Made by a program: the position numbers and the translations under genes | Part shown: piece after piece, positions 41,572-62,401 of the stretch | Position numbering within the stretch: the stretch's first letter is position 1 | How the letters are laid out: each line of letters begins with the position of its first letter | The notes under the pieces: model-generated | The model's input: only the letters and a program-made list of their open reading frames with translations | What the model was told of the DNA's origin: nothing | Database searches by the model: none | DNA from: Capnocytophaga gingivalis ATCC 33624 | GTDB taxonomy: Bacteria; Bacteroidota; Bacteroidia; Flavobacteriales; Flavobacteriaceae | NCBI RefSeq assembly: GCF_000174755.1 | Contig: NZ_ACLQ01000035.1 | Location: forward strand, 1-64,000 | DNA length: 64,000 nucleotides | Direction of reading: 5' to 3'

Positions 41572-43587
41572 ATGTTTCAAACTCCTTATAACGCGGCGCC
41601 CTTTTCGCGCTTTACTCCTACCGACTATCTACCAGCTATTGAAAAAGCTATCGCCGAAAGCCTCGCTCAAATCGATAGTATTACCCAAAATCCTGAACCA
41701 GCTAGTTTTAAGAATACAATAGAAGCCTTGGCTTACACAGGCTTAGAACTCGACCGACTTACGGCTATGTTCTTCAACCTCAACAGTGCCGAGACTAACG
41801 ACACCCTGCAAGCCGAAGCGCAACGCATCTCGCCCCTACTTACTGACTACGGCAATGATATCCGCCTGAATGAAGCCCTCTTCAAGCGAGTAAAAACAGT
41901 ATATGACCAGCGCGAAAACCTATCACTCACTGCAGAACAACAGACACTCCTTGAAAAAACTTACAAAAGTTTTACTCGCAATGGGGCTAACTTATCACTC
42001 AACGATAAGGAGAGTTTGCGCAAGATTGATAAAGAATTGGCTACACTTAAGCTGAAATTCTCCGAGAATGTACTCGCTGAAACCCAGCATTACCAATGGG
42101 TAATTACCGATAAGGAACAACTGAGTGGGCTACCCGATTTTGTCCTTGAGATACTCGCCCAAGAAGCCCAAAAGCGCCATACCCAAGGCTGGGTTATTAC
42201 GCTGGATATGCCCGTGTATACTGCTGTGATGAAATATGCCGATAACCGTGACCTACGCCAAAAACTCTTCACCGATTATCACAGTCGTTGTGCGGGAGAG
42301 AGTGCCTTTAGCAATGAGGCCAATGTCTTGCGTATCGCCGAGCTACGCCAAGCCCGTGCTACCCTCTTGGGCTATCCTTCTTATGCAGCGTTTGCCTTGG
42401 AGGAGCGTATGGCAGAAACACCCGAAAAGGTGATGAACTTCCTGAGTGAACTGTTAAGCAAAGCCAAACCGCAAGCCCTTAAGGAGTTAGAACAACTCAA
42501 AACCTTCTCGGGGCTTGCCGACTTCCAGCAGTGGGATTTCGCCTACTATGCCGAAAAACTCAAACAAGAATGTTACCAGATTGATGACTCCCTGCTCAAG
42601 CCTTATCTATCCTTAGACAAGGCAGTAGAAGGTATGTTTGCCGTTGCCCACAAGCTCTACGGCTTGTGCTTCTCCCTTACCGAGGAGGTAGAAAAATACC
42701 ACCCTGAAGTACAAACCTACAAGGTAACCGATGAGGATGGCAATTATCTCGCCCTTTTCTACACCGATTTTTTCCCTCGTGCAGGCAAGCGCAATGGAGC
42801 GTGGATGACCTCCTACAAAGAGCAGTATACAGATAAGCAGGGCAACGATTCCCGCCCTCATATCTCTATAGTGTGCAACTTCACCCGCCCAACGGATACC
42901 GCTCCTTCTTTGCTGACATTCAACGAGCTAACGACTCTCTTTCACGAGTTTGGGCACGCCCTTCACGGGATGCTCTCCAAGGTTACTTACCCCTCGCTCA
43001 GTGGTACCAATGTAGCCCGAGACTTTGTGGAACTCCCCAGTCAGTTGATGGAAAATTGGTGTTATGAAGAAGAAACTTTGCGCCTTTTCGCCACACATTA
43101 TGAGACGGGCGCCCCTCTGCCTATAGAATGGGTACAAAAGATAAAAGAAGCCAGCGCCTTTATGGAGGGTATCCTAAGTGTGCGCCAGCTCAATTTTGGA
43201 TTCTTAGATATGGCGTGGCATACCTATCCTCATCTGGAACGCCTCGAGAGTGTGGATTTGTTCGAGCAAGAAGCTACCAAAGTAACCCAGCTCTATCCCC
43301 CTATTGATGTGATGTGTATTTCTCCTGCTTTCTCTCATATTTTCAGCGGAGGCTATGCCGCAGGGTATTACAGCTACAAATGGTCGGAAGTATTGGACGC
43401 CGATGCTTTTGAAGCCTTTAAGGAAGTAGGTATTTTCAATGCTGAAGTAGCGACTCGTTTCCGCAAGGAGGTTCTCGAAAAGGGCAGTAGCGAAAAGGAA
43501 AGCCTGCTATACAAGCGCTTCCGTGGTCAAGACCCTACCCCCGATGCCCTTATCCGAAGAGCTTTTGGAGAAGTGAAAGGCGAATAG
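41572..43587 (+). CDS. dcp: M3 family metallopeptidase (Dcp/oligopeptidase A-like)
   Basis: A 671-residue zinc peptidase. The zinc site is HEFGH at residues 458-462, with the third ligand glutamate expected about 26 residues later, in the segment DFVELPSQLMENWC. HIFSGGYAAGYYSYKWSEVL near residue 590 is the conserved substrate loop with the tyrosines that bind the peptide. There is no signal peptide, so it should act in the cytoplasm on short peptides, as Dcp (releases C-terminal dipeptides) or oligopeptidase A. Length matches Dcp. Codons use visibly more G and C endings than the lpx genes. It stands alone between terminator and repeat region. Confidence 0.9.
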   Translation: MFQTPYNAAPFSRFTPTDYLPAIEKAIAESLAQIDSITQNPEPASFKNTIEALAYTGLELDRLTAMFFNLNSAETNDTLQAEAQRISPLLTDYGNDIRLNEALFKRVKTVYDQRENLSLTAEQQTLLEKTYKSFTRNGANLSLNDKESLRKIDKELATLKLKFSENVLAETQHYQWVITDKEQLSGLPDFVLEILAQEAQKRHTQGWVITLDMPVYTAVMKYADNRDLRQKLFTDYHSRCAGESAFSNEANVLRIAELRQARATLLGYPSYAAFALEERMAETPEKVMNFLSELLSKAKPQALKELEQLKTFSGLADFQQWDFAYYAEKLKQECYQIDDSLLKPYLSLDKAVEGMFAVAHKLYGLCFSLTEEVEKYHPEVQTYKVTDEDGNYLALFYTDFFPRAGKRNGAWMTSYKEQYTDKQGNDSRPHISIVCNFTRPTDTAPSLLTFNELTTLFHEFGHALHGMLSKVTYPSLSGTNVARDFVELPSQLMENWCYEEETLRLFATHYETGAPLPIEWVQKIKEASAFMEGILSVRQLNFGFLDMAWHTYPHLERLESVDLFEQEATKVTQLYPPIDVMCISPAFSHIFSGGYAAGYYSYKWSEVLDADAFEAFKEVGIFNAEVATRFRKEVLEKGSSEKESLLYKRFRGQDPTPDALIRRAFGEVKGE

Positions 43588-44971: not shown

Positions 44972-47659
44972 ATGAAAGAAAACTTACTTTCCGCCATTAA
45001 GGCACACGATTTTACCGCGATACGCAATATTTGCTTTGGTCTTTCTGAGGAAGAAAGACAGGAGCTAAAGAGTTATTTTGCCCGAAAGAATTTTAACTTT
45101 ATCTTTCGGGAAATCCTCGAAAAAGAAAAAAGATACCATTTCTCTAATAAGGAATTAGCCATTATCTCATACACTATTATGTGTGTGTGCAATACCTTAG
45201 AGGAGGTAAGAAAAATAGAACTTTTCCAGAATATAGAACCTTATGTAAAGGGGAATTACTACTATTTTCTATCTTCTTTAGAAGACGAAGTTTTATTAGA
45301 TTTCGTTCAAACTCCACAAGGGGCTTATATGATAGAAGGTATCCAGCTGATGTATAAAGATAATCCTCTGGAGATGTCTTTTCAAATACTTTGGTCGGTA
45401 TACAAGGCTGGGTATATTCCTCTTAATGAGGGTGTTTTTATACAAAAAATGTATGACCTCAATTGGTTTAAGGCAGACGAGCATCTTACTAAATACCTGT
45501 TGAAACACCCAGAAACAGTTGTTCTTTTCCCTTCTGTACCAGCGTATATCCAAGATACTATATTTACTACAGAAGAATGGAAAAAAATATATCATACCCT
45601 AAACAAAAAAGGATATTTGACTAACAAAAATGCGATTCTCCACTCTTTTATCGAAGCCCTACTGAACCCTTGGAAGAAGACTGTGTTGGATATGTATTGC
45701 CGTTGGATAGAAACCTTTGAACCCTCCCACCAAGAGCTTTTATCTAACCAACACACCCTTTTTGCCCTGCTCAGTAGCGACAAGACATCGGTGGTGAACT
45801 TTGTGATGAAACTCATCAAAGAGATAGCCAGCGAAAAAGACTTTGACTTCCAAGCCTTCGCCGATAACTTTTCTTTGTGTTTCACTACCCAAAAAATCGC
45901 CAAATCTCAATTGGTAGGTTTGGATATTTTGGAGAAGCACTATAAGAAGCAAGCCCCTACCAATCCCGACTATCGCGAGCAATTAGCGGTACTCTTTACC
46001 GTCCCTGATGCCCAACTTCAAGAGAAAGTCGCCAACCTCCTAACCACCTATTTCAGTGGAGAGGGCTTAGCAGAAGTCGTAGCACCCTATCAGGATTACC
46101 TAAAAGGCAAAGCTCAAGACCTCCTTGCAACTCTAAGTCCATCAGAAAATTCTGAGAATTCCGAGAACTCCCAAATTGCCTGTGCGGCTCGCACCTCTCA
46201 AACTGCCTGTGTGGCTCACACCCCCAAGATTGCCTATGCCGCTCGCACTCCTCGCACTTGGGACGATCTGCTCTTCCTCATTGGCGATTGCATTCGTGAG
46301 CGCTCTCCCCTTGTCTTAGATCTTTTCTTTGAGGGCTTGAACCAGTTGCAAGCACAAATCCCTGCAGATTACCCAGAGCAGGTAAAACCCTATCTCAAAC
46401 AGTTACTCTCTAACGAAAGGGCTGTTACATCACTATTCTATCAGTTTTTAGACTCGTGGTGTAGCCAAAGCCCTATCCCTCTTGTTTATAATACCAATAA
46501 GGAATGGAATGAATTACAAGAACTCTATAACGAAAAGAAATACTCACAAGCCGAGAAGTTCAACAAACTAAGAGAAATACACGTAAGTGCTAATAAAGCG
46601 AAGAAGATCTTCCCTTTTTTCTTCAATAAGATAGCGTGTGCTCTACAAAAGCTCAAAGAGAAAGACACGTTGCCATTTATCAGCACCCCCACTCATGCTC
46701 CGTTTTATATAGAACCGCTTACCTTTTTAGAGCGCGTTATTCAATATGAAAAAGCAGGTAAAACCCCTATGCAGGAAGATGTCATCATAGGGCTCAACCG
46801 CCTACTCCCCACCGAGATTACAGAAGCACAAAAGCAATTAGCTCTTTCCCTTACAGGCGATTATACTCCTGCCTTGCAATATTACTTTGAGGTAAATAAA
46901 CAAATAGCTGTAACCGATGCTACACGAGTACTCTGGGGGCAAGTCTTACGTCTGAAAGATATTGATGGGGTATTCCCTGAATTGGAAATCCCACAGAAAT
47001 CCAATTTACAGGGCTTGGTGCGTCCGTTTTATCTGAAATACGAAGTAGAACTTACCAAAATCAACGGTGTAGAACGAAATAAAATCATTTTGGAAGACAA
47101 TTGGGATAAAAAACATAGTACTTATTCGTACTATAATGAACTCGGAGCCAATTATTACAATGTATCGCCGATGGGCAAGGTAATAGATGAGGACATTGAC
47201 TATGAGCTCAGTCTAAACCCTCGCTATATAGATGGCTGGCTGTGCAAATACCTACTCACTTATACCCAAGGGATGGATAGCGAAAGCCTCTCTGAAGCCA
47301 CTCGCGTGATGAGTTTGCTTTTACAATACAACTTGCCTATCTATCACGGCGGTTGGCTAATGGTCGCTACTTGTCTTTTAGCCGAGAGAAAACCCTTGCG
47401 CGATCTGGCTGCCGAGTATATCCTTCTAAGCCTGCAAAGAGAGAAAACACTCTCCTACCTTGCCGAAGCCATCGGAACGCTCTTAGCTCATAAGTACGCC
47501 CCTATCGCCCGCTTTGTAGAGTTTTTGGATCTTCCTACCCGCGACCCTAAAGTAAAGGGCTTCCAAAAAGCGGTAGTAGAAGCCTATTTGCCTTTGGCTG
47601 AAAAACAAGAAAAGAAACCTACCAACCATAAGAAGTTAGCTAGTTTTTTGATTAACTAA
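44972..47659 (+). CDS. Large helical DUF6493-like protein, array copy 1
   Basis: An 895-residue cytoplasmic protein, first of six tandem paralogues. Layout: N-terminal helical part (1-240), a constant block (about 255-385, LFALLSSDKTSVVNFVM to REQLAVLFTVPD), a linker (about 389-428) with three 9-residue repeats (ACAARTSQT and variants), then a core with LLFLIGDCIRERSP, STPTHAPFYIE (about 570), LNRLLP, VLWGQVLRLK, LSLNPRYIDGWLCKY, YHGGWLMV and FVEFLDLPTRDPKVK, ending NHKKLASFLIN. I assign DUF6493 from memory of the STPTH motif and general layout. No catalytic residues are evident. The first 47 nt are identical to copy 6, residues 470-570 resemble copy 3, and the C-terminal half resembles copy 6, so the gene is a mosaic. 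Function unknown; HEAT-like scaffold is a guess. Confidence 0.72.
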   Translation: MKENLLSAIKAHDFTAIRNICFGLSEEERQELKSYFARKNFNFIFREILEKEKRYHFSNKELAIISYTIMCVCNTLEEVRKIELFQNIEPYVKGNYYYFLSSLEDEVLLDFVQTPQGAYMIEGIQLMYKDNPLEMSFQILWSVYKAGYIPLNEGVFIQKMYDLNWFKADEHLTKYLLKHPETVVLFPSVPAYIQDTIFTTEEWKKIYHTLNKKGYLTNKNAILHSFIEALLNPWKKTVLDMYCRWIETFEPSHQELLSNQHTLFALLSSDKTSVVNFVMKLIKEIASEKDFDFQAFADNFSLCFTTQKIAKSQLVGLDILEKHYKKQAPTNPDYREQLAVLFTVPDAQLQEKVANLLTTYFSGEGLAEVVAPYQDYLKGKAQDLLATLSPSENSENSENSQIACAARTSQTACVAHTPKIAYAARTPRTWDDLLFLIGDCIRERSPLVLDLFFEGLNQLQAQIPADYPEQVKPYLKQLLSNERAVTSLFYQFLDSWCSQSPIPLVYNTNKEWNELQELYNEKKYSQAEKFNKLREIHVSANKAKKIFPFFFNKIACALQKLKEKDTLPFISTPTHAPFYIEPLTFLERVIQYEKAGKTPMQEDVIIGLNRLLPTEITEAQKQLALSLTGDYTPALQYYFEVNKQIAVTDATRVLWGQVLRLKDIDGVFPELEIPQKSNLQGLVRPFYLKYEVELTKINGVERNKIILEDNWDKKHSTYSYYNELGANYYNVSPMGKVIDEDIDYELSLNPRYIDGWLCKYLLTYTQGMDSESLSEATRVMSLLLQYNLPIYHGGWLMVATCLLAERKPLRDLAAEYILLSLQREKTLSYLAEAIGTLLAHKYAPIARFVEFLDLPTRDPKVKGFQKAVVEAYLPLAEKQEKKPTNHKKLASFLIN
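46182..46248 (+). repeat. Three 27-bp linker repeats with palindromic cores in array copy 1
   Basis: Repeat cores at 46182-46194 (GTGCG-GCT-CGCAC), 46209-46221 (GTGTG-GCT-CACAC) and 46236-46248 (degenerate) are spaced exactly 27 bp. The first two are perfect 5-bp inverted repeats, and one base pair has changed on both sides. Matching cores occur in copy 2 (48891-48903), copy 3 (51675-51687 imperfect, 51693-51705), copy 4 (54325-54337 imperfect) and copy 6 (59602-59614, 59629-59641 degenerate). Copy 5 has none. Confidence 0.8.
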
Positions 47660-47683
47660 TAATTATAATAGTAAAAGTACCTT

Positions 47684-50320
47684 ATGAACAAAGAACTTAT
47701 CTCAGCCCTTAAAAATGAAAATTGGGTAGAAATCCGCCGTATTGCCTTTGCCCTTCCCGAGCAGAAAAAAACACAAATCAAAAAGCAAACTCACAACAAA
47801 GATTGGGAAAATATATTCGAGGAAAAGCATCTTAGTTACAAAATCGAGTATGTCATCACCTATCTGATGATGTGTGTATGCCATAGCGTAGAAGAACTGC
47901 TAAGTGTAGAAAAACAGCTGGATTTCACTTCTGTAAAGAGCTATCATACACGTATTAAGTATCCTCTTTTCTTTTTGAATTCCCAACACACCCAAGCCTT
48001 TATGGATTTTATCCACACCCCCGAAGGGGCGTATATGATAGCGGGTGCCCAACAGGTTTTTGAGCAATCCCCACGTAGTTTTTCTATCGAAATACTCTTA
48101 GCCCTTTACACAGAGGGGATTATCCCTTTTAATGAAGAGATTTTTGTCAAAAACTTATATGATATTGAGTATTACCGTACACAAGAAACTGAAGTAGCTG
48201 AGGTACTTCTCCAGTATCCTGAGCTGGCAACACGGGTGATTCCTCATACGGCTAAGTATATAGATTATGTTATTAGTAGTAGTTTGGAATGGCAAAAAGT
48301 CTTTACCCTGCTTTGTAAGAAAAACTATTTCCCTGATAAGAGCTTCATAACCAGCTTTATAGAAATATTACTCAACCCTTGGAAAAAGAATGTATTGGAT
48401 ATGTACTGCCGATGGATTGAGGGATTAGTACCTACTGAAGAAGAGTTGCTACCAAGTCAGCATACGCTTTTTGCTTTGCTAACTTTGGACAAATCATCGC
48501 TTATCAACTTTGCAATGAAGCGTATTGCTCAAATAAGCACTCATCCCGATTTTGATTTCCAATCCTTTGCCGATAATTTTGCACTTTGCTTTACTGTCCA
48601 AAAAATCGCTAAATCCCAACTCATAGGGGTAGAGATTTTAGAAAAATACTACCAAAAGCAAGCCCCTACCAATCCCGACTACCGCGAACAATTAGCGGTA
48701 CTCTTCACTGTACCCGATGTGAAGCTCCAAGAGAAAGTCGCTAGCCTCCTCACCTCCTACTTTAACCAAGAAGGTCTTCCCAAAGTCATCGCTCCTTACC
48801 GCGATTACCTAAAAGGCAAAGCCCAAGACCTCCTTGCAACCCTAAGTCCATCAGAAAATTCTGAAAATTCTGAGAACTCCCCAACTGCCTGTGCGGCTCG
48901 CACCCTAACCCCTATCACCTATCCTCTAAAACCTGAAGACCTCCTCTTCCTCCTCGGCGACTGCCTACGCGAGCCTGCTGCTCATACAATAGATGTCTTC
49001 TTGGAGGGACTTATTACTATACAAGATAACTTCTCTGCCGATTGGGCAAAGTCTCTTTCACCTTATATCAAACAACTCACCAAGCGAGTAGATAAGGAGG
49101 AAATCCCTACCGATGCCATTCTCTTGGGAGTCTTACGTGCGCTGATAGACCGCCGTCCTTTAGCACTTGACCCTAAGTGTAGCTATACGTGGGAAGAACT
49201 CTGTAAAAAGCGCAAAAAGCTCTCCGAAAAAGAGTTTGAAGCCTATACGCAGGATTATTACTTAGGCAATGCCCGCCAAGTCCTGCCGTTTCTTTTTCGC
49301 AAGGGGCAAATGGTCATTGACGCTATCCTCCAGCACTGCCACTTGCCTTTGCTCTCTACCCCCACGCATCTGCCTTTCTATATAGAAGCAGAGGTATTGG
49401 TGGATAAGCTCTTGCAATATGAAGCGCAAGGCGTACAACCTGATATTGACGACCTGATTGTAGCTTGCAACCGCTTGCTTTTCAGAGAAGTTTCGGCAAC
49501 AGCCAAAGAAAAAGCCAAACAACTCAAAGGTAACTATGCGCTTGCTATCCAGTATTATTTAGGTTTAACTGATAAGATACAACTAACCGAAGAGCTTCTC
49601 CCTCTTTGGGCGCAAATTACTCGTATCAAACACCCCGATAGAGCGTTTCCAGAATTTGAAAACACTTCGGCTAAGGATATTCTGGGGGTAGTAAAACCTT
49701 ACCTAATTGGCTATGGCTGGCAGGAAAATAAGTCTCATAAGAGTTTTGTATTTGAGCACCACACCGAGTGGGTAGGGGTAAGTTATACAGATCTAAAGAA
49801 TGCCTTCCCATATCGCTATTACAATGCTAATGGTGGAAGTTCGCCCATCAGTACTATTTTTGAATATAAGCTAAGCCTCAACCCTCACTACCCCGATGCG
49901 ATGCTGTGTGACTATATCAGCACTTGGGTTACGGGTAACGAAGTGCGCGAAATTCGCAATATGTCAGTGCCTTTGGAAGTGCTTTTGCGTTATGATATTA
50001 GGGTACGCCATAGCGGTTGGCTCTATATAGGTACGGCTTTGCTGTTTGAAAAACGTCCCTCACGTGATTTGGCGTATGAATATATCTGTCAGGCAATTAC
50101 TCGTGGGGAAGACTTAACTTACTTGAAAACTTACCTTGCCCAAGTACTCGCTTGGGATTTTCTCCCTATCCCTCGCTTTATAGAGTTTTTGGACAGACCC
50201 ACCCACGATGCGAAGCTAAAAGCCTTTGGGAAAGAAGTAATACAGCTCTATTTAAAAGAAGTGGAAAAGCAGAATAAGCTGCCAAGAAACCATAAGAAAT
50301 TAGCACAACTGACTAATTAA
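47684..50320 (+). CDS. Large helical DUF6493-like protein, array copy 2
   Basis: An 878-residue paralogue, 24 bp after copy 1. The N-terminal 240 residues differ from copy 1 but keep the same spacing of motifs (a PEGAYMIAGAQQVF segment matches PQGAYMIEGIQLMY of copy 1). The constant block (LTLDKSSLINFAM to REQLAVLFTVPD) ends near residue 350. The linker near 386-410 holds one CAART repeat. The core has LLFLLGDCLREPAA, STPTHLPFYIE (about 557), VVACNRLL-type sequence (IVACNRLLF), SLNPHYPDAMLCDY and VRHSGWLYIGTALLFE, and ends PRNHKKLAQLTN. Its C-terminal half is closest to copy 3. A segment around 49950-50010 appears to be the donor of an insertion in copy 3. Confidence 0.72.
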   Translation: MNKELISALKNENWVEIRRIAFALPEQKKTQIKKQTHNKDWENIFEEKHLSYKIEYVITYLMMCVCHSVEELLSVEKQLDFTSVKSYHTRIKYPLFFLNSQHTQAFMDFIHTPEGAYMIAGAQQVFEQSPRSFSIEILLALYTEGIIPFNEEIFVKNLYDIEYYRTQETEVAEVLLQYPELATRVIPHTAKYIDYVISSSLEWQKVFTLLCKKNYFPDKSFITSFIEILLNPWKKNVLDMYCRWIEGLVPTEEELLPSQHTLFALLTLDKSSLINFAMKRIAQISTHPDFDFQSFADNFALCFTVQKIAKSQLIGVEILEKYYQKQAPTNPDYREQLAVLFTVPDVKLQEKVASLLTSYFNQEGLPKVIAPYRDYLKGKAQDLLATLSPSENSENSENSPTACAARTLTPITYPLKPEDLLFLLGDCLREPAAHTIDVFLEGLITIQDNFSADWAKSLSPYIKQLTKRVDKEEIPTDAILLGVLRALIDRRPLALDPKCSYTWEELCKKRKKLSEKEFEAYTQDYYLGNARQVLPFLFRKGQMVIDAILQHCHLPLLSTPTHLPFYIEAEVLVDKLLQYEAQGVQPDIDDLIVACNRLLFREVSATAKEKAKQLKGNYALAIQYYLGLTDKIQLTEELLPLWAQITRIKHPDRAFPEFENTSAKDILGVVKPYLIGYGWQENKSHKSFVFEHHTEWVGVSYTDLKNAFPYRYYNANGGSSPISTIFEYKLSLNPHYPDAMLCDYISTWVTGNEVREIRNMSVPLEVLLRYDIRVRHSGWLYIGTALLFEKRPSRDLAYEYICQAITRGEDLTYLKTYLAQVLAWDFLPIPRFIEFLDRPTHDAKLKAFGKEVIQLYLKEVEKQNKLPRNHKKLAQLTN

Positions 50321-50356
50321 TCAATTGATTTGTTTGATAATAAAATGAAATGAAAA

Positions 50357-53272
50357 ATGAAAAAAGAACTCATCACCGCCATTGCCGAGGGAAATTTTTC
50401 GGCTATTTTAAGCATTACAAGCCAACTCACCGATAGTGAGCGTTATAGCACCATCGCTGCTATCAAGGATTTAAACCCCTATTCAGAAACAGATTTCCCA
50501 CAAAAGAACGTGGATAAAAAGGATACTTATCGCCATAAAGATAGTGTTTTTCAAGCGCTTAACTACGCCCTTATCACTATGGTACGTGAAGAAAGCGATA
50601 TTGCCAAAGTGATGATTAATAAAGAAAATTATTATGGTGAAATTTATCAAGTAACTCCTTATGTTATCTTGGGTTCTTACTATTTTGAACCTGTAATCAA
50701 GTACTTTACAAAGTTTCCGCCAGATTACTATATCAAAGAAGTGCTCAAAGAACGCTACAACAAAGAAATTAACGGACTTTCTTTTGGATTCCAATGGTAT
50801 TTCTATAAAAAAGGATGGATTCCCTTTGAAGAAGAACGTTTTGTAAAAAACCTTCTTGAGGTCTCTATGTTCAACCGCTATGTAACCGCCGATGTAAACT
50901 TCCTCTTGCAAAACCCCGAAGCTATTGAAAAGGTACTCCTACAACTCTACCGTATTGAGACCAAAGTGCTTGACCTTTCGAAGTGGAAGAGTGACAACAC
51001 CCTACGTAAGACCAACGACTTGGGTTCGGCTAAGGTAACTACCTATTGGGATGAGGTATTTGAATTATTGGTGCATTATGGCTACCAAATTCCTCGTAGT
51101 TTTGTAGGGCAGCTTTTAGAATCATTGCTCAACCAATGGAAGAAACCCCACCTCGATTGGCATTGCCGTTTGCTCAAATGGCTTGCCCCTACCCAAGAGG
51201 AACTTTTGGCTCATCAACAAACGCTCTTTGCCGTTTTAGGCACTGGAGTAGGCAGTGTAGTGAAGACCGTTATGGAATACATCGTCTCTATTGCTAATGC
51301 GCAAAAGTTTGATTTTGAAGGCTTCCGCGTGCAATTCCCGCTCGCCTTTACCGTAGAGAAGCAACCTAAAGCACTCCTTCAAGGAGTAGAGATTTTGGCA
51401 AAGGAATTCAAAAAACATACTCCTACCGATGTCAGCTATCGTGAACAATTGGCAGTACTCTTCACTCAGCCCGATATAAAACTACAAGAAGCTGTAGCTG
51501 AACTACTCATCACCTATTTCAACCAAGAAGGTCTCCCCGAAGTCATCGCACCTTACCGCAATTACCTAAAAGGCAAAGCTCAAGACCTCCTTGCAACTCT
51601 AAGTCCATCGGAATCATCCGCCCCGTCCGACTTGTCCGACAGGTCAGCCTCGTCCGAGAACTCCCAAACTGCCTGTGCGGCTCGCTCTGCCTGTGCGGCT
51701 CGCACCCTAACCCCTATCATCTATCCCCTAACCCCTAATGAAACCCTCTTCCTCATTGGTGATTGTATCCGCGAAAAAGCAGCCGCTACTATTGATGTTT
51801 TCTTTGATGCGCTGGTACGCTTGCAAGACCAAATCCCTGCAGATTATGCTGAGCAGGTAAAACCCTACCTCAAGCAGCTTCTCGCCCGTGAGTGGTTTGT
51901 GGGAACGATGCCTCTACTATACTTATTTTTAGACTCTTGGAGCAACCAAAGCTCTACACCCCTTGTATATGATACCGACAAGGAATGGAAAGAAATTCAA
52001 AAACTATACAAAGAAGATAAATATACACAAGCCGATAAACTCGACAAACCAAGAGTGATGCACATAGCAGCCAATCAAGCACAACAGACTTTCCCTTATC
52101 TCTTTAATAAGATAGCACGCACACTCCAAAAGCTCAAAGAGAAAGACACCTTGCCTTTCCTTTCTACCCCTACACACGAACCTTTCTATATAGAGGCAGA
52201 AGTGTTGGTGGATAAACTCTTGCAATACGAAGCCCAAGGCAAATCCCCCGACCTCGACGACCTAATTGTCGCCTGCAACCGCTTGCTGTTTAAGGAGGTT
52301 TCGGCAGCAGCCAAAGAAAAAGCCCAACAACTCAAAGGCGACTACGCTCCTGCTATTCAGTATTACTTAGGTCTTACTGATAAAATACAATTAAACGAAG
52401 CGCTTCTAACGCTATGGACGCAAATCACCCGCCTAAAACACCCCGATGAGGAGTTCAAAGTATTTGAAACTACTCAGGCAAAGAATATCCTTAGCGTGGT
52501 AAAACCTTTCTATATCCGTTATGGTTGGGAGAAAAGAACTTATGCCAATGGTGAAGTAGGCGAAGAGTTCACCTATCACTGCAATCATTATTACAAATAC
52601 GGCAAAGATAAAAGCCGTCCTACCCTTTACAACTATTACAATGCCAATGAAGGGAAATGCATTTCGGCTCAAGAGGCAGAATATAAACTAAGCCTCAATC
52701 CCCACTATCCTGATGCGATATTATGTGCTCACATAGCGCTCTGGGCAACAATGAATGAGGCTGACCAAGTGCGCGATATGTCTTTGCCTTTGGAAGCCGT
52801 ATTGCGCTACGACCTGCGTGTGCGCCATAGCGGTTGGCTGTATATAGGCGCGTGTTTGCTCTTTGAAAGACGCCCCTCACGCGATTGTTGGAACCGAAAG
52901 GGTTTGAATTCGCAATATGTCAGTGCCTTTGGAAGTGCTTTGCGTTATGATATTAGGGTGCGCCATAGCGGTTGGCTGTATATAGGCGCGTGTTTGCTCT
53001 TTGAAAAACGCCCCTCACGCGATTTGGCGTATGAGTATATTTGTCAGGCAATTGCTCGTGGGGAAGACCTGAGCTACCTAAAGACCTATCTCGCTGAAGT
53101 ACTCGCATGGGACTACCTGCCCATACCGCGCTTTATAGAATTCCTTGACCGCCCTAATCCACCAGCCGTAAAAGCCTTTGGCAAAGAAGTAGTACAGCTC
53201 TATTTAGAAGAAGTGAAGAAGCAGGACAAGTTGCCAAGAAACCATAAAAAGTTAGCGCAATTGGTTGATTAA
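50357..53272 (+). CDS. Large helical DUF6493-like protein, array copy 3, with internal duplication
   Basis: A 971-residue paralogue and the longest member. The N-terminal part (to about 290) is the most divergent, and the constant block is also diverged (VLGTGVGSVVKTVM) but regains REQLAVLFTQPD. The linker (about 414-455) has an extra Ser/Asp-rich stretch (SAPSDLSDRSASSENS) and two CAAR repeats 18 bp apart. The core holds LFLIGDCIREKAA, STPTHEPFYIE, IVACNRLLF and SLNPHYPDAILC. The VRHSGWLYIGACLLFE block occurs twice (about residues 822 and 868) because of a 138-bp in-frame insertion at about 52887-53024. It ends PRNHKKLAQLVD. Residues before STPTH resemble copy 1. Confidence 0.72.
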   Translation: MKKELITAIAEGNFSAILSITSQLTDSERYSTIAAIKDLNPYSETDFPQKNVDKKDTYRHKDSVFQALNYALITMVREESDIAKVMINKENYYGEIYQVTPYVILGSYYFEPVIKYFTKFPPDYYIKEVLKERYNKEINGLSFGFQWYFYKKGWIPFEEERFVKNLLEVSMFNRYVTADVNFLLQNPEAIEKVLLQLYRIETKVLDLSKWKSDNTLRKTNDLGSAKVTTYWDEVFELLVHYGYQIPRSFVGQLLESLLNQWKKPHLDWHCRLLKWLAPTQEELLAHQQTLFAVLGTGVGSVVKTVMEYIVSIANAQKFDFEGFRVQFPLAFTVEKQPKALLQGVEILAKEFKKHTPTDVSYREQLAVLFTQPDIKLQEAVAELLITYFNQEGLPEVIAPYRNYLKGKAQDLLATLSPSESSAPSDLSDRSASSENSQTACAARSACAARTLTPIIYPLTPNETLFLIGDCIREKAAATIDVFFDALVRLQDQIPADYAEQVKPYLKQLLAREWFVGTMPLLYLFLDSWSNQSSTPLVYDTDKEWKEIQKLYKEDKYTQADKLDKPRVMHIAANQAQQTFPYLFNKIARTLQKLKEKDTLPFLSTPTHEPFYIEAEVLVDKLLQYEAQGKSPDLDDLIVACNRLLFKEVSAAAKEKAQQLKGDYAPAIQYYLGLTDKIQLNEALLTLWTQITRLKHPDEEFKVFETTQAKNILSVVKPFYIRYGWEKRTYANGEVGEEFTYHCNHYYKYGKDKSRPTLYNYYNANEGKCISAQEAEYKLSLNPHYPDAILCAHIALWATMNEADQVRDMSLPLEAVLRYDLRVRHSGWLYIGACLLFERRPSRDCWNRKGLNSQYVSAFGSALRYDIRVRHSGWLYIGACLLFEKRPSRDLAYEYICQAIARGEDLSYLKTYLAEVLAWDYLPIPRFIEFLDRPNPPAVKAFGKEVVQLYLEEVKKQDKLPRNHKKLAQLVD
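52821..53024 (+). repeat. 138-bp offset in-frame duplication in array copy 3
   Basis: Bases 52821-52886 recur at 52959-53024 with a single visible A/G difference. The 72 bp between (52887-52958) contain about 20 bp of unrelated filler followed by a stretch matching copy 2 (near 49951-50010), but with one T missing from a TTTT run. Confidence 0.85.
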
Positions 53273-53336
53273 TCCTTCTATTAATGGTTATCACTTCTCT
53301 TTATATCTTATTCATTATAACTGATAGAACTATTTT

Positions 53337-55787: not shown

Positions 55788-55811
55788 TTTACTAATTAAC
55801 AAATTGCCCTT

Positions 55812-58394
55812 ATGTTTGAACACTTAAAAAAACTGATTACTACCCACGATTTAGATACTCTCTTTTCCTTCTGCAGTAACTTAGCAGATAACGAGCGCCT
55901 TGCCCTTTTAGAGGAATTCCAACAGTCTAAATGGGGACTAAAAGAATCTTTTGGGGATAAAGGTATGTTTGAATTGCAACCGCCTAACAATTCCGATTAC
56001 GAGTTTATTATAGCACTATTTCTCCTTACCCGAAGTGTGGAAGAATACCAAGCGCTCAGCATTCACGAAATATGTGGTTATTATGTAGCAAGTTCCCGCT
56101 TTTTTAGCGACTCAAAAGCGCTACACATTCTCCCCAAAATCCTCCGAGAGGAAAAATATCGCTTTATCTTAGACTTTTACCGTGCACTAAAGCCCTATGA
56201 AAAAGAGTTCATCTCTTTTGAAACCTATTGGGCGCTCTACAAGGCGGGAGAAATTCCTTTTGACGAGGCACTTTTTACCAAAAATATCACTGCAACCTAT
56301 CTCTATGATGATAAAAAAGTCCGTTATACCGATTTAGTACTACATGACCAAGAGTTCCACGACAAGATTTTTAGGCGTTTGCACCTTTATGAAAACCAAA
56401 TGTTCCACGATGCCAAACCGTGGGAGGACTTCTTTGTACATCTGCAAAGACAAGGCTATGTGTTCGATAGAAAGTACATCCCCGAACTTTTGGAGAGCCT
56501 GCTCAACCCTTGGAAAAAACCTCACCTCAATTGGCATTGCCGTTGGATTGAGTTCTTAGAGCCTACTACAGAGGAACTCCTCGCCTGCCAGCAAACCCTC
56601 TTTGCCTTGCTCAGTACAGGCAACACTAACCTTATCAACTTTGCCCTCAAGCATATACAGCGAATTACTAATGAAAAAGACTTTGACTTTCAATCTTTTG
56701 CCAATAACTTTACGCTTTGTTTTGCTACCCAAAAAATAGCCAAATCCCAACTCATAGGTTTACATATTTTAGAAAAGTACTATAAAAAGCAAGCCCCTAC
56801 CAATCCCGACTATCGCGAGCAATTAGCGGTACTTTTTACTGTGCCCGATGCCAAACTCCAAGAGAAGGCTGCAAGCTTATTAAAGACTTATTTTGGAGGA
56901 GAAGGATTAGTAGAAGTAGTAGTACCCTATCAGGATTACCTAAAAGGTAAAGCCCTAGAGCTTTTTTCTACCCTAAGTCCTACGCCTATTCAGAACGATA
57001 ATCTTTCCTGTCAACTTACCGATTGTTCTCCTTCGGAAAAATCTGTGAGAGTAGGCTATGTGACGGAACTTGAAACACCCACCACCCCCGAAGCTCTATT
57101 ATTCTTATTGGGCGACTGTCTCCGCGAGCGTACGCCCCAGACTATCGACCTTTTCTTTGAGGGCTTTAACCAATTGCAAGATGACTTCCCTACTGACTTT
57201 AAGGAGCAGTTAGCACCCTATCTTAAGCAGTTAGAAAGACACTGGAACGGCATTGCCTCAGTGCCTATCTTGCGTTGGTTTTTACAGCGTTGGACGGGTG
57301 ATAAAAAGAAGCTAATTGAGGAAGATGAAACATTTTTCCTCACCACCCTCCCCTATCTATATCATAAAGCCCAGCACCTGTTGAAGAATCGCAAGAAGAA
57401 AAACAGACTCCCTTTCCTTTCCACCCCTACACACGCCCCGTTCTATATAGAGGTAGAGGTACTGATGGATAGACTCTTACAATACGAGAGACAAGGCGAA
57501 AATCCCGACCTCCACGACTTGGTAGTGGCTTGCAACCGACTGCTCTTTAAAGATATTTCGGCAGTAGCCAAAGAAAAAGCCCAACAACTCAAGGGTGCCT
57601 ACGCTCCTACCATTCAGTACTATATAGGGCTTACGGATAAGGTGCAACCTACCGAGGAACTTTTGCCCCTTTGGACGCAAATCACTCGTATCAAGTACCC
57701 CGATGGTGAGTTCGTAGAGTTTGGTAACACTTCCGCTAAGGATATACCGTGTGTGGTCAAGCCTTTTGAAACTGGATTTGGGGTACTCACCCGCAAGCAA
57801 AGTACAGTTACTTTCCATTACTTGAGCATTCACGACAATTGGAACAACAATTTTGATGCACGTAAGAAACCTACGGAATACCCTGTATTGTATTACAATG
57901 CGGGCAACAGTCGCAAAGGCTGGAGCACGGATATATTGTACCAATGCAGTCTAAACCCACACTATCCAGAGGCGCAAATCCTCCGTTATATAGCCTCTTA
58001 CGCCAAGGGCAATGAGTCGTATGATATAGAGTATATGCAAACGTCTATGCAAGTGTTGCTTGAGAACCATTTGCCTATCTATCACAGTGGTTGGCTGTTT
58101 GTAGCCGCCGCCTTGCTCTTTGAGAAAAAGCCCACCCGCGATATGGCAGCCGCTTATATCTTAGAATGCTTGGAAAGTGGTACAAATCTCAACCTCTTAG
58201 CGCAATATATCGGCAAGCTATTAGCCGAACAATACGCCCCCATAGCCCGCTTTGTGGAGTTTTTGGATATCCCTACCCGCGACCCTAAAATAAAGGCTTT
58301 CCAAAAAAGCGTAGTAGAAGCCTATTTGCCTTTGGCTGAAAAACTTGATAAGAAACCTACAAACCATAAGAAATTAGCAACTTTTATTAATTAG
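55812..58394 (+). CDS. Large helical DUF6493-like protein, array copy 5
   Basis: An 860-residue paralogue, 24 bp after copy 4. N-terminal part unique (MFEHLKKLITTHDLDTLFSF), constant block present (LFALLSTGNTNLINFAL to REQLAVLFTVPD). The linker (about 388-425) lacks the CAART minisatellite; instead it reads SPTPIQNDNLSCQLTDCSPS. The core has LLFLLGDCLRERTPQTIDLFFEG, STPTHAPFYIE, VVACNRLLFKDIS and TQITRIKYPDGEFVEF, closest to copies 2 and 3, whereas YHSGWLFVAAALLFE and FVEFLDIPTRDPKIKAFQKS resemble copies 1, 4 and 6. It shows the mixed ancestry most clearly. Ends NHKKLATFIN. Function unknown. Confidence 0.72.
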   Translation: MFEHLKKLITTHDLDTLFSFCSNLADNERLALLEEFQQSKWGLKESFGDKGMFELQPPNNSDYEFIIALFLLTRSVEEYQALSIHEICGYYVASSRFFSDSKALHILPKILREEKYRFILDFYRALKPYEKEFISFETYWALYKAGEIPFDEALFTKNITATYLYDDKKVRYTDLVLHDQEFHDKIFRRLHLYENQMFHDAKPWEDFFVHLQRQGYVFDRKYIPELLESLLNPWKKPHLNWHCRWIEFLEPTTEELLACQQTLFALLSTGNTNLINFALKHIQRITNEKDFDFQSFANNFTLCFATQKIAKSQLIGLHILEKYYKKQAPTNPDYREQLAVLFTVPDAKLQEKAASLLKTYFGGEGLVEVVVPYQDYLKGKALELFSTLSPTPIQNDNLSCQLTDCSPSEKSVRVGYVTELETPTTPEALLFLLGDCLRERTPQTIDLFFEGFNQLQDDFPTDFKEQLAPYLKQLERHWNGIASVPILRWFLQRWTGDKKKLIEEDETFFLTTLPYLYHKAQHLLKNRKKKNRLPFLSTPTHAPFYIEVEVLMDRLLQYERQGENPDLHDLVVACNRLLFKDISAVAKEKAQQLKGAYAPTIQYYIGLTDKVQPTEELLPLWTQITRIKYPDGEFVEFGNTSAKDIPCVVKPFETGFGVLTRKQSTVTFHYLSIHDNWNNNFDARKKPTEYPVLYYNAGNSRKGWSTDILYQCSLNPHYPEAQILRYIASYAKGNESYDIEYMQTSMQVLLENHLPIYHSGWLFVAAALLFEKKPTRDMAAAYILECLESGTNLNLLAQYIGKLLAEQYAPIARFVEFLDIPTRDPKIKAFQKSVVEAYLPLAEKLDKKPTNHKKLATFIN

Positions 58395-58406
58395 TCACTT
58401 TTCGCT

Positions 58407-60962
58407 ATGAAAGAAAACTTACTTTCCGCCATTAAGGCACACGATTTTACCGCCATTCGCAATATTTGCTTTGCGCTTTCAGAGGAAGAACGCAATGACC
58501 TTATACATACCTTGCAAACAGCCCGCTGGGAACAACTATATCACAACACCGATAAGCGTGCACCACGATTACAAAGCCTTGATATAGTATGCTTTTCTTA
58601 TATATTTTTATGTGTATCCCGCAGTAGTGAGTCCCTCAAGAAAGCCGTAAAAGGATGTTATAGCTCTGATAAAGATATTGTAGCTGAGTTCTTGCAGTTT
58701 TATTTTCCGCACCTATTGGATTTGCTCACAACCCAAGAAGGGCAATACCTCATCACCACACTACAGTCTCTAAGAAAAAATCACTTTCTACAAGATACTA
58801 CCTTTCAGAACCTTTGGACTTTGTACCAAAAGGGATTCATTGCCTTTGATGAAGACCTATTTATAGAAAAATTCTTCTTTTGGAACAATAAGCATATCAC
58901 CGATGAACCTTTTGTCGATTTTCTATTGGAAAACAAGCAAATCAGCGAAAAGATTTTTGCCATAGTCCCCCAACATATCACCCAAGAGGTACCCTATCCT
59001 TCTGAGGCTTGGAAAGAGTTGTACAGTATTCTGCAAGCTAAAGGATATTTCGCAGACCGTAGTATCGTTGGCAGTCATATAGAGGCACTCCTAAATCCTT
59101 ACAAAAAGAATATCCTTGACTTCTTTTGCCGTATTATTGAAACATTCGAGCCTACCCGTCAAGAGCTTTTATCTCATCAAAGCACCCTTTTTGCCCTGCT
59201 CAGTAGCGACAAAACATCGGTGGTGAACTTTGTGATGAAGCTCATCAAAGAGATAGCCAGCGAAAAAGGATTTGACTTCCAATCTTTTGCCGACAACTTT
59301 GCCCTGTGTTTTGCTACCCAAAAGATAGCCAAATCACAACTCATAGGTTTGGATATTTTAGCAAAGCATTACAAAAAACAACCTCCTACCCATATAGAAT
59401 CCCGCGAACAATTAGCGGTACTCTTCACCGTCCCCGACGTAAAACTCCAAGAAAAAGTTGCCAGCTTGCTAACCACTTATTTTGGAGGAGAGGGATTAGC
59501 AGAGGTAGTAGCACCGTATCAGGATTACCTAAAAGGGAAGGCACAAGAGCTTCTCCAATCCTTACCCTCACCCAACTCATCAGAAACCTCTGAAACTGCC
59601 TGTGCGGCTCGCACCCCAAAAATTGCTCCTGCCGCTCGCACTCCTCATACTTGGGACGACCTGCTCTTCCTTATTGGCGACTGTATCCGTGAGCGTTCGC
59701 CTCTTGCTTTAGACCTTTTCTTTGAGGGCTTGAACCAGTTACAAGCGCAAATTCCTGCTGACTTCTCTCGGCAAATAAGTCCGTACCAAAAGCAGTTGGG
59801 CGAACAGCCTTTTGAATTTACCACCTACCGAAAGTGTATGCGCTGGGTGATTGATGTTTGGGAGGGCAAAGCCTCACTCTCCGATGATATTTTTGGCGGG
59901 AAGCTCTATAATCCTACGCCATTCCTCCGAGAGAAAACCAAGCGACTGCTCCTAAAGCTCAAGCAAGGCAACTCATTGCCCTTTGTCAGCACCCCCACTC
60001 ACGCTCCGTTTTATATAGACCCGCTTACCTTTTTAGAACGTATCGCACAATATGAAAAAACTGAAAAATCCCCGATGTTAGAAGATGTTGTCGTGGGGCT
60101 CAACCGCTTGCTTCCTACGGAAGTTACCGAAGAACAAAAGCAATTGGCTCGTTCCCTTACGGGCAACTATGCTCCTGCCTTGCAATATTACTTTGAGGTA
60201 AACAAACAAATAGCTGTAACCGATGCTACACGAGTACTCTGGGGGCAAGTTTTACGCCTGAAAGACCTCGATGGAGTATTCCCTGAATTGGAAATCCCAC
60301 AGAAAACCAACTTACAGGGCTTGGCGCATCCGTTTTATCTGAAATATGAAGTAAAACCTACCAAAATTAAGGGTGTAGAACTGAATAAAATCATTTTGGA
60401 GGACAATTGGGATAAAAAATATAGTGCTTATTCTCTCTACAATGACCTCGGAGCCAATTATTACAATGTATCACCAATGAGCAGGGCAACAGATGAGGAT
60501 ATCGACTATGGGCTCAGTCTAAACCCCCGCTATATAGATGGATGGCTGTGCAAGTACTTGCTTACCTACGCCCAAGGTGTGGAAGGGGAATCCCTCACCG
60601 AAGCTACCCGTGTGATGAGTCTGCTCCTTGAGCACCACTTGCCTATCTATCACGGTGGTTGGCTGATGGTTGCTACTTGTCTTTTAGCCGAAAGAAAACC
60701 CTTGCGCGATCTTGCTACCGAGTATATCCTTTTAGCACTCCAAAGAGGGGAAACGCTTACCTACCTTGCCGAAGCCATCGGGACGCTTTTAGCGCATAAA
60801 TACGCCCCTATCGCTCGCTTTGTAGAGTTTTTGGATCTCCCCACCCGCGACCCCAAAGTAAAAGCTTTCCAAAAAAGTGTGGTAGAAGCCTATTTGCCTT
60901 TAGCTGAAAAATTAGAGAAGAAACCTACGAATCACAAAAAGTTAGCTGCTTTTAGCGATTAG
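58407..60962 (+). CDS. Large helical DUF6493-like protein, array copy 6
   Basis: An 851-residue paralogue, 12 bp after copy 5. It begins with the same MKENLLSAIKAHDFTAIRNI as copy 1, then diverges from about residue 30 to 240. The constant block is again almost identical to copy 1. The linker (about 384-420) carries one perfect and one degenerate repeat. From GDCIRERSPLALDLFFEGLN to the end it follows copy 1 very closely (LEIPQK.NLQGL, NYYNVSPM, SLNPRYIDGWLCKYLLTY), except for a different stretch at about 460-530. It ends NHKKLAAFSD. The stop is followed by a 35-bp gap and the promoter of the SWIM gene. Confidence 0.72.
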   Translation: MKENLLSAIKAHDFTAIRNICFALSEEERNDLIHTLQTARWEQLYHNTDKRAPRLQSLDIVCFSYIFLCVSRSSESLKKAVKGCYSSDKDIVAEFLQFYFPHLLDLLTTQEGQYLITTLQSLRKNHFLQDTTFQNLWTLYQKGFIAFDEDLFIEKFFFWNNKHITDEPFVDFLLENKQISEKIFAIVPQHITQEVPYPSEAWKELYSILQAKGYFADRSIVGSHIEALLNPYKKNILDFFCRIIETFEPTRQELLSHQSTLFALLSSDKTSVVNFVMKLIKEIASEKGFDFQSFADNFALCFATQKIAKSQLIGLDILAKHYKKQPPTHIESREQLAVLFTVPDVKLQEKVASLLTTYFGGEGLAEVVAPYQDYLKGKAQELLQSLPSPNSSETSETACAARTPKIAPAARTPHTWDDLLFLIGDCIRERSPLALDLFFEGLNQLQAQIPADFSRQISPYQKQLGEQPFEFTTYRKCMRWVIDVWEGKASLSDDIFGGKLYNPTPFLREKTKRLLLKLKQGNSLPFVSTPTHAPFYIDPLTFLERIAQYEKTEKSPMLEDVVVGLNRLLPTEVTEEQKQLARSLTGNYAPALQYYFEVNKQIAVTDATRVLWGQVLRLKDLDGVFPELEIPQKTNLQGLAHPFYLKYEVKPTKIKGVELNKIILEDNWDKKYSAYSLYNDLGANYYNVSPMSRATDEDIDYGLSLNPRYIDGWLCKYLLTYAQGVEGESLTEATRVMSLLLEHHLPIYHGGWLMVATCLLAERKPLRDLATEYILLALQRGETLTYLAEAIGTLLAHKYAPIARFVEFLDLPTRDPKVKAFQKSVVEAYLPLAEKLEKKPTNHKKLAAFSD

Positions 60963-60994
60963 GTATTACTTGTTAGCTCCCAGAGCTCCCATAT

Positions 60995-61024
60995 TTGCTA
61001 ATCAACAAATTATCCTTATCTTTG
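60995..61024 (+). promoter_or_regulatory. Promoter of the SWIM zinc-finger gene
   Basis: TTG (60995-60997), 19 bp, TATCTTTG (61017-61024): a near-ideal Bacteroidota promoter, 21 bp before the ATG at 61046. The TTG that could be read as a start codon is in fact the -33 element. Confidence 0.8.
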
Positions 61025-61045
61025 CCTAATAAATTGATAAATAAA

Positions 61046-62401
61046 ATGAACGACTTTGAATATGCTTATCCGTTCGCCTCGGTGATAGAAGAGGCGAATG
61101 CTCACGAGAAGAATTTTATCTTTTCGCACTGTTCAGAACTCAAAGAAGACAATGCAGTGCCTTGTTTCTTTTGGGGAAATATCACCCAACCTTTTGTGGT
61201 GGCTAAGTGTCTTGCTACACTGGCGAAGACCGTAGCCTCTCAGTTTGCTATCGCCCCTGGAGTGCTTGCAAAATTGCGTGACCCCATTATCTCGGTAGGA
61301 AATGGTGAATTGCTTTTTGAGGGGTTCTCGTCCTGTAATAGCGTTTATGCCCGTGTAGGCTTGCGCAACGATGTGTTGGACGGCGATTTCTTGCAGAGCG
61401 GTTGTACCAATATCGATTTCAACGATGTAACCGTGCGCGCTTTCAATGCGGTAACCGCTTCCGAGAAAATGATACTTGGGATAGGCCAAAAGCAAACACA
61501 TTTCATCACTGAAAAGCACAAATCTGTAGAGAAAAAAGTAACGCTCCCCAACCGCTGGATCAAAGGATTGGGCAACGTACAGGTATATCTTTCTGAAATG
61601 GATTTGGCATATCGCCTCAATAAAGCCGAAGCCATTCAGCTCTTCCGTTCTCTGCCCAAACAAGCTGTAAAAAACGATTATTACTTGGTAAAACGTGGCG
61701 TAGGTTACACTTTTGCACCTACCGCTACAGCAGGGGCTATCAAAATAGGAGGAGTACACCGTCTCAACCTCTTACAAGGCTTACTTCTGCTTGCCGATAG
61801 TCTTTACGTATATCGCAGTAGCAGTGAGCAATCAGTTGCTTTTGTGTTGCATTTCAAAGGAGTAGAAATGCTTTTCTTGCTGTCAGACAATGTATATCGA
61901 GGTTTTTCGGGTGAAGGAAAATACTTGGAGAATATGATTGAAGAAGTACCTATGGAATGGCTTGTGGGGATTAACAATTTCTTCAAGACCAACGAAGTAT
62001 TTTCGCCTACGATGGTGGCTATTGAGAATGATGTGAATATGGGTACAATGGCGACCCTACAAGCATCGCTCTCGAGTATAGGACTATTAGGATACAACCT
62101 AACAGACAGCAATTATTTCTACCGCCGTTTGCCATTCAAACCCCAGCGATTGATAAGTCTGAACCCGCGATTGCAAAATGCCAAAAAACTCACTGAAAAT
62201 AATGAAGTACAAATCGTAGAGCAACGCGGTGATTATGTAAAAGCCAATGTAAAAGGAACAGGGGGAGTGACCCATACTGTTATTCTTGATGGCGAGAAGG
62301 CACAATGTACTTGCAATTGGTACACCAATCACCAAACAAATCGAGGATTATGCAAACATATCTTAGCGACTAAGATGATAAGTCAGCAGTTAGATAACTA
62401 A
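61046..62401 (+). CDS. SWIM zinc-finger protein
   Basis: A 451-residue cytoplasmic protein (start MNDFEYAYPFA) whose C-terminal region holds a SWIM motif: CTCNWYTNHQTNRGLCKH near residue 425, with the CxC...CxH zinc ligands. The rest is mixed alpha/beta with no known fold I can name. SWIM domains bind nucleic acid or protein. In many bacteria (for example E. coli YehQ, by memory) SWIM proteins sit with MoxR-type AAA+ and vWA genes, sometimes with DUF6493-like partners. Here it follows six such partners but no AAA+ or vWA gene is seen. I rejected the upstream TTG start because it is the promoter -33 element. Its 3' end overlaps the convergent plsC gene by 4 bp. Confidence 0.85.
   Translation: MNDFEYAYPFASVIEEANAHEKNFIFSHCSELKEDNAVPCFFWGNITQPFVVAKCLATLAKTVASQFAIAPGVLAKLRDPIISVGNGELLFEGFSSCNSVYARVGLRNDVLDGDFLQSGCTNIDFNDVTVRAFNAVTASEKMILGIGQKQTHFITEKHKSVEKKVTLPNRWIKGLGNVQVYLSEMDLAYRLNKAEAIQLFRSLPKQAVKNDYYLVKRGVGYTFAPTATAGAIKIGGVHRLNLLQGLLLLADSLYVYRSSSEQSVAFVLHFKGVEMLFLLSDNVYRGFSGEGKYLENMIEEVPMEWLVGINNFFKTNEVFSPTMVAIENDVNMGTMATLQASLSSIGLLGYNLTDSNYFYRRLPFKPQRLISLNPRLQNAKKLTENNEVQIVEQRGDYVKANVKGTGGVTHTVILDGEKAQCTCNWYTNHQTNRGLCKHILATKMISQQLDN

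Follow-up and report, generated by a model that had tools for sequence, protein, structure and literature searches.

Introduction

What does a row of six mosaic paralogues closed by a single SWIM zinc-finger gene do for a bacterium? The question is raised by a 64,000-nucleotide (nt) stretch of the Capnocytophaga gingivalis ATCC 33624 genome (contig NZ_ACLQ01000035.1, positions 1 to 64,000; hereafter the window), in which six consecutive genes for DUF6493 proteins of 816–971 residues (C1 to C6) are followed by a gene for a SWIM protein, with the coordinates and sizes that an earlier note on this DNA had given. On our best reading, SWIM and DUF6493 constitute a widespread two-gene module, of which the window locus is an expanded, segment-shuffled form. 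Structure prediction gives the SWIM protein the fold of a PCNA-like sliding clamp, and gene neighborhoods suggest that the module probably functions in a nucleic-acid damage or conflict response, with RNA repair as the best single guess.

The SWIM protein is a predicted sliding clamp

The SWIM gene (60,995–62,401, + strand; PF04434 and the PADLOC model SWIM_XIII) closes the array and encodes 468 amino acids (aa) from a TTG start, the first ATG lying downstream at 61,046. An AlphaFold model built from 33 sequences (mean predicted local distance difference test score, pLDDT, 79.5), together with structure comparison, predicts a PCNA-like two-domain clamp at model residues 42–286 (61,163–61,897, + strand). 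Searched with Foldseek, the model matches 451 PDB chains at E ≤ 1e-3 (best E 8.6e-10), and the best 50 are all sliding clamps. VIA-align of residues 42–286 likewise places only clamps among the best 50 matches listed, at Z 17.4–18.8, well above the middling range for which that program advises caution; the top match is Sulfolobus PCNA (2ix2, Z 18.8, 216 of 245 residues aligned, root-mean-square deviation 3.1). PCNA and beta clamps are also among the named matches of the model in a viral structure library. The helices that line the hole of PCNA are well established, and the conserved lysine, arginine and histidine residues of the SWIM family sit on three of the four equivalent helices (K56 in 33/33 sequences, R172 in 32/33, K175 in 33/33, H240 in 31/33 and R241 in 33/33). 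Position 243 is basic in 29/33, yet it is an asparagine in the window protein.

Beyond the clamp part, residues ∼305–361 would form a winged helix, judging from the order of secondary-structure elements; the combination of winged helix and SWIM is presumably the arrangement named WHSWIM. The zinc-finger ligands follow as a CxC...CxH signature at residues 423, 425, 438 and 440 (62,306–62,359, + strand), of which C423 and C425 are present in 33/33 aligned sequences and C438 and H440 in 32/33. The SWIM protein is thus modeled as a complete two-domain sliding clamp with a C-terminal zinc finger.

Structurally, the partner proteins are predicted to be ARM/HEAT-like solenoids of unspecified kinship. 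The three families of their DUF6493-DUF7824-DUF7825 layout (PF20103, PF25148 and PF25149) are matched above curated cut-offs in 6/6 window copies. The model of C6 (62 sequences, mean pLDDT 88.7) is helical save for short pieces, the longest of which is a beta hairpin at residues 647–664, within a variable segment. Its structural matches are led by ARM and HEAT proteins, with Z up to 11.2, a value that falls within the range unrelated helical repeats can reach. A sequence search of solved structures with DUF6493 returned one weak match, to an engineered protein (E 1.6e-4). Family-wide, the near-invariant residues include the S, P, T, H and P of an SxPTHxP stretch.

The predicted folds of the locus proteins are well supported by these models, and several observations count on the other side. 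The clamp is predicted from 33 sequences and its identity to PCNA is ∼10%. A profile of the 33 SWIM sequences matches no PDB chain (E ≤ 1), and the relation to clamps rests on the predicted fold because sequence profiles reach no solved clamp. Conserved basic residues are missing from helix aB1, and helix aB2 has an acidic residue at position 246 in 24/33. For the solenoid, the match is generic, and Foldseek returned nothing for the C6 model at E ≤ 1e-3. A literature search combining the SWIM domain with sliding clamps yielded one DNA-repair review, which in its accessible part treats each separately.

SWIM and DUF6493 form a two-gene unit

Genomic neighborhood analysis of SWIM relatives (the best 80 of 469 loci: 30 from Chryseobacterium and 50 from other organisms) reveals that DUF6493 genes accompany 76/80, with one copy in 48 loci, two in 27, three in one and none in four. 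The nearest DUF6493 gene is on the same strand in 76/76, at a median gap of 3 nt, and the gap is ≤200 nt in 74. Of the 26 commonest clusters of open reading frames (ORFs), only SWIM and DUF6493 are found in three or more loci outside Chryseobacterium. Two kinds of SWIM locus depart from the pair: the Myroides loci examined (L128, L137 and L138, 3/3) have a SWIM gene but no DUF6493 gene closer than 10 kb, and the Streptomyces plasmid loci L170 and L172 have clamp/SWIM relatives without an annotated neighboring DUF6493 gene.

This composition bears on the statement, in the earlier note, that SWIM/DUF6493 sets include MoxR and vWA genes. As regards MoxR it is contradicted: none of the 1270 ORFs in the 80 loci is MoxR-like (phmmer with two queries from the window's own genome; no search was aimed at vWA), and the lack of MoxR is therefore normal for the family. 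Nor does any of the ten window proteins scanned with Pfam match MoxR. The locus might still be conceived as a chaperone system of the MoxR-vWA type whose ATPase is encoded elsewhere, and the genome does hold 17 AAA_5 matches, of which the best two fall on other contigs, in ORFs whose lengths (331 and 347 aa) fit MoxR. We regard this as highly improbable, since the phmmer queries found no MoxR-like gene in the 80 neighborhoods and, among the 26 commonest clusters, no third one reaches beyond two loci outside Chryseobacterium. Moreover, the word SWIM is absent from the main text of the paper on MoxR-vWA ternary systems (Kaur et al. 2020, PMC7159879), while PMC10910872 and PMC4858521, in their accessible text, mention SWIM, MoxR and vWA, but not as one set.

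Within the genus, one genome per species was compared (20 genomes including that of the window; genomes are cited below by G numbers and loci by L numbers). DUF6493 is found in 10/20, with 1–6 matches each, and SWIM in 9/20, so that copy number varies between genomes of the genus, in keeping with the diversification proposed in the earlier note; nine genomes hold both families, one DUF6493 only and ten neither (Fisher p = 1.2e-4). The genome with DUF6493 only, G007, has three DUF6493 matches, two of them with stops and the third a shortened frame of 650 aa, an apparent joint loss of the module. The two genes are not always adjacent: in G011 they lie ∼1 Mb apart, and G010 and G018 each carry the array divided between two sites. 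In the window's own genome, the six copies and the one SWIM gene are the only matches to their families at E ≤ 0.001.

Farther afield DUF6493 is sparse. DUF6493 occurs in three further genomes of a family sample (299 genomes) and in 11 of a phylum sample (395 genomes), the window's own included. The pair is also carried by plasmids of Asticcacaulis, Diaphorobacter and Streptomyces; the Diaphorobacter plasmid has two DUF6493 genes and an adjoining integrase gene. No phage record or viral contig among those searched was found to carry the pair.

The array is a mosaic of old segments

The six solenoid genes lie on the + strand at 44,972–47,659 (C1, 895 aa), 47,684–50,320 (C2, 878 aa), 50,357–53,272 (C3, 971 aa), 53,337–55,787 (C4, 816 aa, with a shortened N-terminus), 55,812–58,394 (C5, 860 aa) and 58,407–60,962 (C6, 851 aa). 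All frames are intact, and the gaps from C1 through the SWIM gene are 12–64 nt.

Their histories were examined in an alignment of 30 DUF6493 copies, the window's six plus 24 that eight related genus genomes contributed; the pairwise homoplasy index (PHI) and segment trees used 28/30, the distant single copies G04_c3 and G14_c3 being omitted. The mosaicism of the array is well supported. PHI was 1.399 against 1.577 ± 0.004 in 1000 permutations (p = 0.001, the minimum attainable). Trees of the N, K, M and C segments are mutually incompatible in 12/12 comparisons (approximately unbiased test, p from 1.3e-58 to 0.0022), with log-likelihood differences of 126–1409 between swapped trees. The earlier note's idea of diversification by segment exchange, with a constant middle and divergent ends, is supported, and the outcome that it had named as refuting, one consistent tree for all segments, did not appear.

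The joints that had been read from the window itself also hold up at the nucleotide level. C1 and C6 open with 47 identical nt, counted from the start codon, and again share their C-terminal part (M2 86%, V3 87%, compared with 33–56% between C1 and C2–C5). C1 resembles C3 over residues 431–575 (60–69%), although C3 is its nearest window copy only from ∼481; over residues 431–480, C6 is nearer (75%). C5 joins a C2/C3-like core (74–75%) to a C1/C4/C6-like end (83–86% vs 55–62%). The constant block K (residues 236–385 of C6, 59,112–59,561, + strand), which has a counterpart in all six copies, is 68–80% identical among C1, C2, C4, C5 and C6 and 59–62% identical to that of C3, the most divergent, whereas the N-terminal parts of the window copies share 37–52%.

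Comparison with orthologues indicates where this diversity comes from. In the N-terminal, post-linker (465–525) and hairpin (641–700) segments, the window copies are 31–61% identical to each other in nucleotides, with the exception of the C1/C6 hairpin region (87%). Orthologues, in the same three segments, are 80–100% identical in 35/51 comparisons and 41–78% in 16, of which 11 involve the distant G015. Block K and the last 40 residues behave differently, as identities between window paralogues (up to 80% and up to 86%, respectively) overlap the orthologue range, which for block K is 67–94%. The C2 orthologues in G018, G010 and G013 are 82–87% identical in amino acids. In the plainest case, C1 and its G018 orthologue, synonymous divergence (dS) is 0.00 in the N-terminal 220 columns, 0.49 in K, 0.28 in M2 and 0.39 at the C-terminal end. 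Nonsynonymous divergence (dN) is below dS in 99/102 orthologous segment comparisons, with saturated dS taken to be the larger; it is not so for C1/G18 in N, where both are 0.00, for C3/G13 in the hairpin (0.08 vs 0.07) and for C4/G18 at the C-terminal end (0.01 vs 0.00). The variable segments are versions that diverged long ago and have been reshuffled, and comparison of orthologues shows most of them to be under purifying selection; with dN below dS almost throughout, the diversity therefore stems mainly from old segments rejoined rather than from fast point change. Hypermutation by a diversity-generating retroelement was considered and is unsupported, as the genome yielded no reverse transcriptase match and conservation between orthologues extends to most variable segments.

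Individual exchanges can be traced, among them two natural half-swaps in other genomes. Copy G13_c4x is C1-like in its 5' part (328/382 informative sites) and C4-like in its 3' part (599/636), with the switch at aa 387–424, in the linker. Copy G10_c5x is C4-like in its 5' part (416/464) and C5-like in its 3' part (443/495), and switches at aa 377–386 of its own numbering, just behind its linker. The linker of C1, behind block K, contains SEN.../TACAART-like repeats (46,142–46,201, + strand) and varies in length among orthologues; similar tracts follow block K in C2, C3, C4 and C6, with none in C5, and the repeat run may mark a site of recombination or slippage. C3 contains an extra unit (138 bp, in frame; 52,802–52,986, + strand) that is missing from its orthologues in G018, G010 and G013. 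Because 81 nt of it (52,907–52,986) are 96% identical to C2 (∼49,951–50,031) and 83% to the unit of C3 itself, it looks C2-derived, a recombination scar within the array.

Such an insertion could also be taken as a sign that the array consists of decaying or merely tolerated duplicates without function, as could the stops and shortened frame of G007 and a C3 fragment carried by G012. The six intact window frames and the excess of dS over dN make this very unlikely.

RNA-repair genes lie near the pair in some relatives

A clue to function comes from the genes around the pair. Five core RNA-repair genes (Rnl2, cREC, RlaP, Pnkp and Hen1) were counted within 10 kb at a stricter cut-off, and at least one is present in 20/80 loci (14/30 in Chryseobacterium and 6/50 elsewhere). 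In four loci the distance to the SWIM-DUF6493 block is within 320 nt: RlaP lies 43 nt away in Polaribacter (L127) and 68 nt away in a Bacteroidetes metagenome-assembled genome (L087), and Pnkp lies 319 nt away in L090 and 61 nt away on the other strand in L081, all Pfam-confirmed. Hen1 and Pnkp occur together next to the pair in two loci, on its own strand in Pontibacter virosus (L090) and on the opposite one in Sabulibacter (L081); a suspected presence of both genes in Mucilaginibacter loci was not borne out by the sequences. The 50 loci from outside Chryseobacterium have 175 flanking genes, and a Pfam scan of 111 of these recovered RlaP five times, PNKP_ligase twice and Hen1_L twice. In 23/30 Chryseobacterium loci, the upstream genes on the strand of the pair include one or more of the set cREC, Rnl2, metallophosphoesterase and RNase T; L151 and L155 have the full set plus a metallo-beta-lactamase (MBL) gene, lined up ahead of DUF6493 and SWIM. 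Three unrelated repair chemistries beside the same pair are hard to explain by one inherited neighborhood.

Against a role in RNA repair, 60/80 loci show no core gene in that 10-kb range, and a single genus, Chryseobacterium, accounts for 14 of the 20 positive loci. Closer to the window, phmmer queries found no RNA-repair relative in the window itself, and in the genus loci none except for matches at L045, L052 and L178. The first two are weak matches to the Hen1 query (E ∼2e-8), taken for the methyltransferase part of Hen1, and the Pnkp-query match at L178 (E 3e-14) lies in a genome without the system. RlaP is present in 2/20 genus genomes, G005 without the system and G014 with it; as a within-genus partner it is unsupported, since its presence does not follow the array.

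The same clamp fold would also suit a stable accessory of DNA repair or replication, in which a specialized clamp is served by HEAT-type scaffolds diversified per partner, with no role in conflict. The shared gene neighborhood of the pair in Chryseobacterium suggests long vertical residence, and purifying selection on most orthologous segments is in keeping with it. We nevertheless consider such an accessory unlikely: the system is missing from 10/20 genus genomes, copy number varies, segments are exchanged between species, and the neighbors in a quarter of the loci (20/80) are RNA-repair genes.

A possible retron connection and anti-phage defense

A second line of evidence comes from defense-system models. 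The SWIM protein matches the PADLOC model SWIM_XIII (PDLC02972) over most of its length (E 3.6e-55), as do its relatives, and the adjacent PADLOC accession is WGR_XIII, a model of 973 positions. A passage of a paper using PADLOC lists 'retron type XIII' (PMC11953036), from which we infer that XIII denotes this retron type. This suggests that the clamp-SWIM family may also work in a retron system. Searches on retrons with SWIM or type XIII turned up nothing relevant, as far as the accessible text went, beyond that passage.

A retron at the window locus itself is rejected, as the whole genome has no match to the reverse transcriptase family PF00078 (E ≤ 0.001); its sole WGR_XIII match spans 100 positions and lies in a 245-aa ORF of a different contig. 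The module could instead be an anti-phage relative of retron XIII that dispenses with the reverse transcriptase, its clamp-SWIM protein sensing or gripping foreign nucleic acid and its solenoids serving as diversified sensors or effectors. The SWIM_XIII match, patchy presence, plasmid carriage and the integrase gene beside the Diaphorobacter pair are all consistent with this. Besides the missing reverse transcriptase, however, C1–C6 match no PADLOC solenoid model at E ≤ 0.1, no phage or viral carrier of the pair was found, and the defense families among flanking genes are scattered (28 PADLOC models, of which the 25 listed each match 1–2 of 111 genes). Such a module therefore appears doubtful to us. 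The broader suggestion of the earlier note, a conflict system, is plausible in view of the SWIM_XIII match and of the RNA-repair neighbors of some relatives.

A proposed clamp hub with interchangeable adaptors

In the reading that we prefer, the clamp is a hub for interchangeable solenoid adaptors, and the module acts in a nucleic-acid, probably RNA, damage response; we would put the chances of this reading at about even. The SWIM protein, PCNA-like in its first two thirds, would oligomerize and enclose nucleic acid. A DUF6493 solenoid would dock on this clamp as an adaptor by means of the regions that stay constant (block K, the SxPTHxP positions and the C-terminal end), so that in the window one clamp gene may serve six solenoid paralogues. 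The N-terminal 235 residues, the segment behind the linker and the beta-hairpin region, the old divergent versions described above, would choose the damaged target or partner; the damage would most likely arise in conflict with other bacteria or with phages. The shared blocks let homologous recombination bring these segments into new combinations, both within genomes and between species. A stronger version, in which the SWIM-fused PCNA-like clamp is the hub of an RNA-damage or nucleic-acid-conflict response and the adaptor array is rebuilt by segment swapping to give combinatorially renewed recognizers, is more tentative, and we offer it as a possibility.

Searches of the literature found no paper naming DUF6493 and, mostly at the level of search results, no published description of the SWIM-DUF6493 pair. 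If the model is true, bacteria possess a PCNA-type clamp fold besides the replication clamp, and sliding-clamp biology is joined with RNA repair and bacterial conflict. It would also provide a testable function for three Pfam families of unknown function and for the PADLOC SWIM_XIII family, and the recombined solenoids would constitute a natural library for learning what the variable faces recognize.

Flanking genes and a likely insertion site

The array lies near an M3 peptidase gene (41,572–43,587), which has DUF6493 copies next to it in G012, G018 and G010 as well; in other genomes different genes lie downstream of it, and the site beside it is likely an insertion site. The peptidase gene is matched in 20/20 genus genomes (in G015 only at 42%) and an acyltransferase gene of the flank in 19/20 (none in G012, weak in G015). 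A clean empty site was not found in the system-free G008, G009 and G019, where the two genes are non-adjacent. In G015 and G012 a RhuM-family gene (PF13310) lies between DUF6493 copies (L048, 15,356–16,348; L043, 8,685–9,674), unlike the window array, which has no additional gene between copies.

Comparison with known systems

Four known systems invite comparison with the module. The MoxR-vWA (VMAP) ternary systems, as described in the accessible part of PMC7159879, likewise join diversified parts to a constant partner; the window module differs in having no MoxR neighbor, no named VMAP and other Pfam families. Retron type XIII, if our identification is right, shares with the window a SWIM protein homologous over most of its length, whereas the window genome has no reverse transcriptase match and its linked DUF6493 does not match WGR_XIII. 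From bacterial RNA-repair operons (Pnkp-Hen1, Rnl2/cREC and RlaP) the window differs in that no RNA-repair relative was found there, although such genes lie near the pair in 20/80 relatives, twice, in the case of RlaP, at less than 70 nt. Finally, the window SWIM protein differs from PCNA clamps in its ∼10% identity, its C-terminal SWIM zinc-finger extension, its DUF6493 partner and its bacterial origin, while it resembles Sulfolobus PCNA (2ix2) in its predicted two-domain fold and in the basic residues of three of its four inner helices.

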